Source: a virus. From it: a DNA stretch of 33,674 nt. The stretch covers positions 1 to 33,674 of the IMG/VR virus record IMGVR_UViG_3300033153_005930; one strand, written 5' to 3'. Of the stretch, positions 14,368 to 16,131 are shown piece after piece. A program made the translations under genes and the position numbers. Positions within the stretch are counted from its first letter, which is position 1. Each line of letters begins with the position of its first letter. The notes below the pieces were generated by a model. That model ran no database searches, had not been told where the DNA came from, and was given only the letters and a program-made list of their open reading frames with translations.

Positions 14368-14457
14368 AGTCTCTTAAAAAGAGGACTTGACTGCTCATCC
14401 CCCTTCACGGACACGGGTTGAGTCCTCCTCTTTTTAATAGGCAAAAGTTCGTGAAGG
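14368..14457 (+). promoter_or_regulatory. Interleaved inverted repeats masking the HNH ribosome-binding site
   Basis: Arm a1 at 14374-14387 (TTAAAAAGAGGACT) pairs with a2 at 14421-14437 (AGTCC, 3 extra bases, TCTTTTTAA-type arm). Inside that stem b1 CCTTCACGGA (14402-14411) pairs with b2 TTCGTGAAGG (14448-14457; 10 pairs including one G.U), which overlaps the Shine-Dalgarno GAAGGAG of the HNH gene (ATG 14466). Arm a1 can alternatively pair with AGTCTCTT just upstream (14368-14375), leaving a2 free. This gives a pseudoknot with a built-in alternative fold, the design of a translational switch. Confidence 0.65.
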
Positions 14458-14465
14458 AGCTACAA

Positions 14466-15119
14466 ATGAGAAGAAAACTTAAAACACTCCCAAAAGAAAT
14501 ACTAGGAATACCTATAATTAAAGACTTGGGTATGAATAAAGATGTGAAAGCTAAAAGAGAAGCTATTTTTAAATGTGATTGTGGAAAGAATTTTCAGGCT
14601 AAAATAAATGCAGTAGCAACAGGGCAAAAGAAAAGCTGTGGTTGTTATTATAGGAGATTTCCATCAGGCAAAACACATGGACTTTCAGGACATAGGCTTT
14701 ATAGAAAATGGAGTGGAATGATTACAAGATGTACAAACCCAAAAGAAAGACATTGGCATAGATATGGTGGAAGAGGTATAACAATTTGTAGTGAATGGAG
14801 AAATGATTTTAAAACTTTTTATGATTGAGCTATAGCTAATGGGTATAAAAAAGGGCTAACGATAGATAGAAAAGAAAACGATGGAAACTATGAACCTTCT
14901 AATTGTCAATGGATAACGATGAAAGAGAATACAATAAAAGACAGTTTAAAATTTAACCCATCCAGCACAATAAAAAGCAAGATATGTGAAACATACAAAA
15001 ACACACACATCACAGTAACAAAACTAGCAGAATTGTACAGCACACACAAAGAGCGAATAAGTAATATTCTTAAAGAAAGCAACATACAGATAGTACATAG
15101 GAGAATGAAATGTTATTAA
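14466..15119 (+). pseudogene. HNH homing-type endonuclease interrupted by an in-frame TGA
   Basis: The frame from ATG 14466 encodes a free-standing HNH endonuclease: a Cys-rich N-terminus (FKCDCGKNF ... KSCGCYYRRF), THGLSGHRLYRKWSGMITRC, RYGGRGITICSEWRNDF. At 14826-14828 a TGA replaces the Trp expected in FxxFYDW. The frame then stays open to 15119 with the rest of the nuclease core (TIDRKENDGNYEPSNCQW) and a C-terminal helix-turn-helix (VTKLAELYSTHKERISNIL). The full-length product would be 217 residues. Either the gene is recently inactivated by a TGG-to-TGA change, or UGA is read through at low level. TGA is an ordinary stop elsewhere here. Confidence 0.8.
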
Positions 15120-15559
15120 GTGTTAATGGAGTGGCAAGAATAGCCACAGATTTAGAAACAAGATTTACGCAAGCGGGGAAACAAATCACAAGTTTTTCTG
15201 TAGTGAGTGGTGATAAGTACAAATTACAAGATGGAACAACCAAGGAGGACACCTGTTTTGTAAAGGTGACAGCGTTTGGGGGTTTGGCAAAAGTGATTTC
15301 CGATTATTGCCATAAAGGAAGCAAAGTTTTCATAATTGCATCTTTAAAGCAAGATAAGTGGGAAAATCAGCAGGGAAATAAAAAATCCATGCACACGCTG
15401 AAGATTGAAAAGCTTGAGATGCTAGACTCAAAACAAGACACCCAAAACAACTACCAGCAACCAAACCAAGCACCACCTTCACCACCACAAGCTGCACCAC
15501 AACAAGCACCGTCAAACATTCCAGAGATTGACATAACATCGGAAGATATTCCCTTCTGA
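15110..15559 (+). CDS. ssb: Single-stranded DNA-binding protein
   Basis: A 149-residue SSB: an N-terminal OB fold (VNGVARIATDLETRF, TSFSVVSGDKYK, EDTCFVKVTAFGGLAKVISDY, GSKVFIIASLKQDKW), a Pro/Gln-rich flexible linker (about residues 110-138) and the acidic tip ending EDIPF that in bacterial SSBs recruits partner enzymes. It would coat single strands during phage replication and ERF-mediated recombination. The ATG lies within the last codons of the HNH frame (10-nt overlap), so translation may depend on that frame being readable to its end. Confidence 0.9.
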   Translation: MLLSVNGVARIATDLETRFTQAGKQITSFSVVSGDKYKLQDGTTKEDTCFVKVTAFGGLAKVISDYCHKGSKVFIIASLKQDKWENQQGNKKSMHTLKIEKLEMLDSKQDTQNNYQQPNQAPPSPPQAAPQQAPSNIPEIDITSEDIPF

Positions 15560-15587
15560 TTTAATGGCAATGGTAGTCAAAAAAGGA

Positions 15588-15593
15588 TATAAT
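15588..15593 (+). promoter_or_regulatory. TATAAT -10 box upstream of kissing-loop element
   Basis: A perfect TATAAT lies in the ssb-HNH gap; a start site about 7 nt downstream (near 15600) would place the 15603-15641 hairpins at the very 5' end of the transcript. No convincing -35 box is seen (TGGCAA at the expected position). Confidence 0.5.
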
Positions 15594-15602
15594 AACAACC
15601 TA

Positions 15603-15641
15603 GCAGGGACTCCGAATCCCTGCAATTACTTCGGAGGTAAT
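15603..15641 (+). promoter_or_regulatory. Intramolecular kissing-loop / pseudoknot sequestering an HNH gene's Shine-Dalgarno
   Basis: Hairpin 1: GCAGGGA (15603-15609) pairs with TCCCTGC (15617-15623), loop CTCCGAA. Hairpin 2: ATTAC (15625-15629) pairs with GTAAT (15637-15641), loop TTCGGAG (15630-15636). The two 7-nt loops are perfectly complementary. The second loop plus its first stem base is the Shine-Dalgarno GGAGG (15633-15637), 8 nt before ATG 15646. Loop-loop pairing would close the ribosome-binding site; opening either hairpin or capturing hairpin 1 would expose it. All three pairings are exact within 39 nt. Confidence 0.8.
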
Positions 15642-15645
15642 ACAA

Positions 15646-16131
15646 ATGGAAACTACTAAATGCAGAAAATGCAATCAACCAAAAAACATTACAGAATTTT
15701 ATAAAAGCGATAAAAACACTTGCAAAAATTGTATTAAAGCAAGAGTTAAAAAATATAGAAAAGATAATATTGCGAAAGTAATGGAGTATGATAGAAATCG
15801 TCCTAATGCCAAAGAGAGAAATAAGAAGCACTTAAATCGGATGAAAAATTTACCTGCCGAGAAAAAATCTGAATATAAAAAAAGAAAAGATGAGACAACA
15901 GCATCAAGCGAATACAAGAACAAAAAAACAGTAAATACATACTTAGATAATGCGATAAGAGACAAAAGAAAAGAAAAAGGAACAGAGTGCGAACATTGTG
16001 GCGAGAAAGATATACCGCTAGATGGACATCATCCAAGCTACTTGAAGCCTCTTGATGTTGCATGGTTGTGCAAACCTTGTCATGGAGCAGAACACAAGCG
16101 ATTAAACGCAATAAAGAGAGGATCAGCATAA
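15646..16131 (+). CDS. HNH-type endonuclease with N-terminal zinc knuckle
   Basis: A 161-residue protein. The N-terminus CRKCNQPKNITEFYKSDKNT followed by CKNC is the zinc-knuckle start seen in many phage HNH proteins; a long Lys/Arg-rich helical middle follows; the C-terminus CEHCGEKDIPLDGHHPSYLK and LDVAWLCKPCHGAEHKRLN gives a Cys4-type HNH core (DGHH, CxxCHGxxH). It is likely a DNA nicking or cleaving enzyme, free-standing, between ssb and the small HIID paralogue. Its ribosome-binding site lies in the loop of a hairpin that can kiss an upstream hairpin, so its translation is probably tightly controlled. Confidence 0.75.
   Translation: METTKCRKCNQPKNITEFYKSDKNTCKNCIKARVKKYRKDNIAKVMEYDRNRPNAKERNKKHLNRMKNLPAEKKSEYKKRKDETTASSEYKNKKTVNTYLDNAIRDKRKEKGTECEHCGEKDIPLDGHHPSYLKPLDVAWLCKPCHGAEHKRLNAIKRGSA

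Follow-up and report, generated by a model that had tools for sequence, protein, structure and literature searches.

A predicted pseudoknot that would hide the Shine-Dalgarno sequence of a phage HNH nuclease gene, and similar leaders in other phages

Introduction

Leaders that sequester the ribosome-binding site have been described for several endonuclease genes of T4-type phages, namely I-TevI, I-TevII, I-TevIII, segB and Aeh1 mobE, and likewise for T4 gene 49 (endonuclease VII), e and soc (PMC2988022, PMC3014915). These T4-type leaders are single hairpins, and a late promoter supplies transcripts that are free of the inhibitory structure. A different fold is found in the leader of T4/T2 gene 32, which encodes the single-stranded DNA-binding protein (SSB): an H-type pseudoknot 67 nt upstream of the start codon nucleates gp32 binding and controls translation (PMC3014915, PMC535899). 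In the aapA toxin mRNA of H. pylori, an upstream anti-Shine-Dalgarno sequence catches the Shine-Dalgarno (SD) sequence during RNA synthesis, in a system with metastable hairpins, a toxin-antitoxin context and 3' processing (PMC6733600). Compact H-type pseudoknots that hide the SD are also known from the preQ1-I and SAM-II RNAs, and fully complementary 7-nt loops from ColE1 RNAI/RNAII. The int-alpA RNA (RF02996) is a further RNA that, in the present analysis, lies before phage HNH genes.

In the current study, we describe a 39-nt leader before an HNH nuclease gene in the window, that is, the whole 33,674-nt stretch of viral DNA that was analysed (IMG/VR record IMGVR_UViG_3300033153_005930). As in the T4-type cases, the gene is a phage endonuclease gene (endonuclease VII-like), its SD is predicted to pair (in hairpin 2 and in stem S2), and a promoter-like box lies nearby. 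In contrast to the single hairpins of those leaders, however, the window leader joins a second hairpin to a predicted loop-SD pseudoknot, and its -10-like box stands upstream of all pairings, so that a bypass of the T4 type would not be open to it. It shares with the gene 32 leader a predicted pseudoknot in a phage mRNA leader, but here the SD is inside the second stem; with aapA it shares the proposed capture of the SD during synthesis, but through a loop-SD pseudoknot. It resembles preQ1-I and SAM-II in its compact design, whereas the compact leaders described below have no ligand-binding core in common. The ColE1 loops pair in trans between two RNAs, whereas the window hairpins are joined by a linker too short for both stems to stay intact in cis. 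The leader gave no match to the int-alpA model.

Layout of the leader and its gene neighborhood

The leader reads GCAGGGA-CTCCGAA-TCCCTGC-A-ATTAC-TTCGGAG-GTAAT (15603-15641; Table 1) and contains two perfect stems of 7 and 5 bp separated by a 1-nt spacer, A15624. The initial annotation had pointed to two exact hairpins whose 7-nt loops are exact complements, to an SD 8 nt before the HNH start codon, and to a TATAAT box that would place the transcript start at the foot of hairpin 1. The first two points are plain in the sequence, and the third agrees with a predicted +1 near 15600, 2-3 nt before hairpin 1; the -35 match of this promoter is poor (ATGGCA, spacer 18). The annotation had also placed the whole GGAGG in loop 2, which holds for four of its bases, the fifth being part of the stem. 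In the RNAfold prediction, hairpin 2 grows to 7 bp and its loop shrinks to 3 nt, and an intrinsic terminator scan did not report hairpin 1 as a terminator. A fold of 15540-15760 contains a possible 7-bp stem (one G-U pair) between 15571-15577 and 15652-15658, which would enclose the leader and the start codon and would be available only to read-through transcripts from ssb.

Table 1. Positions of the leader elements and neighboring genes in the window
Feature	Position	Strand	Basis or remark
S1 5' strand (hairpin 1), GCAGGGA	15603..15609	+	exact inverted repeat
Loop 1, CTCCGAA; S2 5' strand, anti-SD	15610..15616	+	exact complement of 15630-15636
S1 3' strand, TCCCTGC	15617..15623	+	pairs with GCAGGGA
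A linker and ATTAC; hairpin 2 5' arm or pseudoknot L3 (6 nt) crossing S1	15624..15629	+	
Hairpin 2 5' arm, ATTAC	15625..15629	+	pairs with GTAAT 15637-15641
Loop 2, TTCGGAG; S2 3' strand, with four of five SD bases inside	15630..15636	+	
SD, GGAGG, 8 nt before ATG 15646	15633..15637	+	sequence
Hairpin 2 3' arm, GTAAT	15637..15641	+	sequence
TATAAT (-10-like) box	15588..15593	+	exact sequence; ends 9 nt before S1
HNH / endonuclease VII-like gene (161 aa)	15646..16131	+	phrog_2340 3e-28 (endonuclease), phrog_1035 endonuclease VII 2e-5
ssb gene, directly upstream of the HNH gene	15110..15559	+	Pfam SSB 2e-22
Second HNH gene (phrog_374), ATG 14466	14466..14828	+	cut by in-frame TGA 14826-14828
Second HNH leader	14369..14457	+	long hairpin 14369-14442, loop CCCTTCAC 14401-14408

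The 161-aa HNH product had no Pfam match, its phrog_1035 (endonuclease VII) match is weak, and a profile search against the PDB returned nothing useful; CxxC pairs are common to eleven HNH homologues, as are two neighboring histidines and one C-terminal histidine (an HH...H motif). The best homologues are less than 50% identical. In a set of 69 non-redundant homologue leaders, an SSB-type acidic tail precedes the HNH gene in 65. The sister phage L123, whose SSB is 66% identical, has other genes after ssb, the HNH gene and the leader both being absent there.

The second HNH gene of the window is interrupted by an in-frame TGA, past which the frame stays open to 15119, and relatives have W at that position (L232). 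The codon is either a nonsense mutation or a sequencing error; reassignment of TGA was rejected, since ssb and ATGA overlaps use it as a stop. In the leader of this gene, a hairpin of about -35 kcal/mol carries the loop CCCTTCAC; its CCTTCAC can pair with GTGAAGG at 14451-14457 in the SD region, but with a stem of about 27 bp and a linker of 7 nt, simple loop-SD pairing in cis is doubtful. Loop-SD pairing in the family of this second HNH gene showed weak enrichment, and some of that was an artefact of where the cut had been placed.

Rarity of the arrangement

Among the adjacent hairpin pairs of the window, only that at 15603-15641 exceeds four complementary loop bases, and the best loop complementarity in 40 whole-window shuffles was 6. 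The pseudoknot score of the leader is 37, compared to a best value of 33 among 1,000 leader shuffles. A 7-nt loop complementarity to the SD region is confined to the two HNH genes among the window's 40 SD-bearing starts, and a hairpin loop with such complementarity was found for only 1 of 188 control genes. The loop/SD arrangement of the window leader is not a product of chance. No close homologue of the leader was found by blastn on phages or by searching for the exact hairpin 1 in 84,980 genomes, and none of the HNH protein in genomes or IMG/VR; scans for the loop sequence or the S1 sequence gave unrelated matches only. Because close homologues of the HNH leader are absent from the searched collections, the covariation described below rests on the leaders of other genes.

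Geometry, energy and proposed mechanism

Two forms of loop-loop pairing, a kissing-loop complex or an H-type pseudoknot, had been proposed for this leader. Kissing of the intact window hairpins in cis would leave about 53 Å to bridge with 1 nt, the reach of which is about 12 Å; with this linker, both stems cannot stay paired during loop-loop pairing, and a kissing-loop complex in cis was rejected on geometric grounds for the compact leaders. The H-type pseudoknot fits: by geometric estimate, the 6-nt L3 would span 29.7 Å with a reach of about 43 Å, and this geometry also fits two of the leaders introduced below (L136 and L239). The modeled pseudoknot has L1 = 0 across 7 bp, and without an L1 nucleotide, the junction would probably need one open S1 or S2 pair, or else a bend in the helix of the kind seen when 7-nt kissing loops are fully paired. 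Judged on S1, S2, crossing-loop length and compensatory changes, the modeled structure belongs to the H-type pseudoknot class. A rough estimate of the Dirks-Pierce type put the pseudoknot at -16.6 to -18.7 kcal/mol and the two hairpins at -15.0 kcal/mol, an advantage of only 1.6-3.7 kcal/mol, and a pseudoknot that is comparable to or modestly favored over two hairpins would suit a two-state leader.

Our preferred reading, to which we assign a probability of roughly 70%, is that the window leader is a 5'-terminal H-type pseudoknot, rivaled by hairpin 2, that conceals the SD and holds down synthesis of the nuclease. Transcription would start at the foot of hairpin 1, leaving the structure as the 5' leader of the HNH mRNA, and hairpin 1 would fold first, presenting its 7-nt anti-SD loop so that it is ready when the SD emerges. 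The emerging SD would then be captured by loop 1 to give the pseudoknot (S1 of 7 bp, S2 of 6-7 bp and L3 of 6 nt), in which GGAG would be buried in a strong helix and the ribosome-binding site hidden, and nuclease synthesis would be kept low and delayed. Hairpin 2, whose 3' arm begins just past the SD, would be the competing, permissive state, with the SD weakly held in a loop, and the pseudoknot might open passively or in response to a factor; neither a signal nor a release step was seen for the window leader. The sequence analysis shows the pairings, the compensatory changes among related leaders, the TATAAT box ahead of the structure and the geometry in cis. We infer the translational repression, the two-state exchange and any agent that would shift the balance, and the "off-switch" for a nuclease gene put forward in the initial annotation is to be read in the same sense.

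Recurrence in other phage leaders

Leaders were scanned for any start whose SD pairs with the loop of an upstream hairpin, covering the window, eight contigs related to it through its helicase, the sister phage L123 and the contig of L239. Whole-sequence shuffles were too lenient because they destroy the start and SD context, and were replaced by 17,025 shuffles in which the SD and start codon of each start were fixed and the upstream bases alone were shuffled. Five strong leaders (at or below -26), including that of the window, were obtained, compared to none of the 17,025 shuffled leaders. Three of them precede HNH genes (window, L239 and L325, the last a phrog_374 gene), one precedes a phrog_874 gene of unknown function (L323), and one a gene for a small protein of 91 aa without a family (L136); the idea of an HNH-specific switch is therefore not borne out. 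The window and L239 had been chosen for reasons other than the scan. L325, L323 and L136 had not, and their contigs had been selected on account of a helicase relative rather than of an HNH gene or a leader; L136 had surfaced in an earlier, looser scan.

The HNH leader of L239 repeats the layout of the window in different letters (TATAAT-7 nt-AGGGGAGTG[CCACAAC]CACTCCTCT-A-ATACTTT[GTTGTGG]GAGGTAT-ATC-ATG). A second hairpin placed exactly around the SD segment is present in all five strong leaders, with arms of 4, 4, 7, 5 and 5 bp, compared to a second hairpin of at least 4 bp in 7% of shuffled hits. An exact TATAAT stands 7 nt before the hairpin in L136 and L239 and 15 nt before it in L325, and L323 has TACAAT at 15 nt; neither the second hairpin nor the promoter-like box was a criterion of the scan. 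L325 (2234-2265) and L323 (2167-2198) also have an invariant extra pairing, TGTAGA/TCTACA, between the 5' end of the leader and the big loop, which suggests a more complex fold in this subtype.

In a larger set of AT-rich, HNH-bearing contigs, one leader was found at or below -26 (0 expected) and seven at -20 (1.5 expected), and in four scanned phage records, including that of Staphylococcus phage Twort, four leaders were found at or below -20 (0.3 expected). The Twort ORF141 leader resembles the loop-SD form (CATAT[AACCTCCT]ATATG...[AGGAGGTT]). In Twort (L404, NC_007021), which is a well-studied phage, the loops before ORF141 and ORF124 are both fully complementary to the SD (AACCTCCT/AGGAGGTT and TCCCTTTCCTT/AAGGAAAGGGA, respectively). 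In a sister phage (L320, 8195-8255), GAGTAGTAG[CATTGGTTTTC]CTGCTACTC is followed by GAAAACCAA, which adjoins the SD of a 70-aa Cys-rich ORF; the loop complementarity there is 9 nt.

Covariation

The homologous leaders of L325 and L323 differ at seven pairs that have changed on both sides with pairing kept (3 in S1, 3 in S2 and 1 in hairpin 2, H2), compared to 0-1 two-sided changes in slid controls. The window and L136 leaders align without gaps over 39 nt (24/39 identical) and likewise differ by seven two-sided changes (4 in S1, 2 in S2 and 1 in H2). In the trio of window, L136 and L239, aligned after four linker bases of L239 had been trimmed by hand, 12 of the 19 pairs have two-sided changes (6/7 in S1 and 4/7 in S2), and 98% of cells are paired, compared to 39-56% in slid controls. 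Since S1/S2 pairing was the search criterion, the S1 and S2 counts are not independent of ascertainment; the only independent evidence comes from H2, from the promoter-like box and from aligning homologous leader pairs. The initial annotation had proposed looking for compensatory change in all three pairings, and such change is present in the relatives (S1, S2 and H2), in leaders found by their S1/S2 pairing. It had named as contrary evidence a loop 1 that varies without loop 2; in every related leader, all found by that same pairing, loop 2 compensates.

Leaders across the HNH family

Start sites in the HNH family are more strongly structured (mean z of -1.27) than those of control genes on the same contigs (-0.15), and a start-site hairpin of -5 kcal/mol or below was found in 41% of the family's leaders and 15% of controls (p about 1e-6). 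Where the gap after ssb is at least 15 nt, 67% of HNH leaders have an SD-hiding hairpin (-5 kcal/mol or better) and 36% have TATAAT within 80 nt; such a hairpin is present in 8% of leaders whose HNH gene abuts or overlaps ssb, and among control starts, 0.5% have TATAAT within 60 nt. Endonuclease VII-like HNH genes follow ssb in many unrelated phages (L151-L230, L140-L148), and their start sites come in two styles, either an overlap with ssb or a gap with a promoter-like box and an SD-hiding hairpin. Leaders with the SD in a hairpin are common in the family (L148, L196, L219 and L220 are examples). In six homologues (L145, L148, L170, L184, L219 and L220), TATAAT lies at -34/-35 and the 5' arm of the hairpin starts from about -32 to -27, so that the transcript would begin inside the arm. 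In Streptococcus phage Javan129 (L235), TATAAT is likewise followed, after a few nt, by the 5' arm of a hairpin that hides the SD. The predicted transcripts of these seven leaders would lack part of the arm, which, as judged from the positions of these elements, is the logic of T4 I-TevI outside T4-like phages.

By a loose test, a pseudoknot was found in 17% of HNH homologues and 14% of controls, most homologues having none. The pseudoknot was rejected as a property of the HNH family, and this lack of enrichment points to a lineage-specific feature.

The int-alpA RNA (RF02996) lies directly upstream of HNH genes in L277 (1015-1085) and L232 (1416-1481) and, just below the cut-off, in L259 (1015-1077), where the SD of the gene is the exact complement of a hairpin loop (CTCATCA/TGATGAG). 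The int-alpA RNA may be a translational leader of HNH genes. A similar-looking leader is found near 12448 in L381 (CCTCCAA/TTGGAGG).

Alternative explanations

The RNAfold minimum of the window leader is the two-hairpin structure at -15.0, a 5'-terminal stem is a known mRNA stabilizer, and SD-in-hairpin leaders are, as noted, common in the HNH family. These points would suit a simple two-hairpin leader, in which hairpin 2 alone sequesters the SD, hairpin 1 acts as a 5'-terminal mRNA-stabilizing stem, and the loop complementarity is secondary. On its own, however, hairpin 2 is weak (-1.0 to -2.8 kcal/mol), and four other leaders also have the 7/7 or 8/8 complementarity, with two-sided changes. 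We therefore regard this explanation as unlikely.

Considerably less probable is a ligand- or protein-responsive riboregulator, whether a preQ1-I-like pseudoknot or an element of autoregulation by SSB or the HNH protein. The design of preQ1-I and SAM-II is that of an SD-hiding H-type pseudoknot. Furthermore, the repression that T4 SSB exerts on its own mRNA acts by way of a pseudoknot in the leader (PMC3014915), and ssb lies just upstream in the window. However, no Rfam family matched the window leader at gathering score, the compact leaders share no conserved unpaired core, and the genes downstream of them are unlike in function.

We give slightly less credence again to intermolecular kissing, in which hairpin 1 would pair with hairpin 2 of another mRNA, or with an antisense transcript having loops of the same sequences, to give concentration-dependent repression. 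Fully paired 7-nt loops are the geometry of ColE1 RNAI/RNAII, and both hairpins are kept in all five strong leaders, but no antisense promoter-like site of at least 9/12 was found within 15580-15650, mRNA concentrations are low, and a cis pseudoknot is entropically favored. Least probable of all is a DNA operator, in which a dimeric regulator would bind the inverted repeat CTCCGAA-N13-TTCGGAG immediately past the promoter. The half-site centers are 20 bp apart and the repeat overlaps the start of the transcribed region, but no second copy with up to 3 mismatches was found in the window, the repeat letters differ in every relative with pairing kept, and S1 and H2 would be left unexplained.

Novelty and significance

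SD-hiding leaders of phage endonuclease genes are already known; the pseudoknot form of the window leader, as predicted from its sequence, is apparently new. The initial annotation had not recognized the arrangement, in keeping with the missing Rfam family and with the literature searched (from which subscription journals were mostly absent), where no description of a loop-SD pseudoknot combined with a hairpin around the SD was found. We see about even odds that these leaders form a recurrent new class of leader RNA, in which a 5'-terminal hairpin with an anti-SD loop and a hairpin exactly around the SD make up a switch between pseudoknot and hairpin states that several groups of phages would use for mobile nucleases and other accessory genes. 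The motif, about 40 nt in length, is fully cis-encoded and sequence-programmable; it thus lends itself to a simple reporter test and could be a designable translational lock.

The same predicted knot, written in different letters, stands before nuclease and other genes elsewhere, and so it probably reflects real control of risky genes; the leader fold, which occupies the first ~45 bases of the message, is probably a means of quieting them. The analysis suggests that occlusion of the SD of phage nuclease genes, elucidated in T4-like phages, extends to another phage group, where the fold differs. It also suggests that, among endonuclease VII-like genes beside ssb, many are either coupled to ssb or preceded by a leader that hides the SD.
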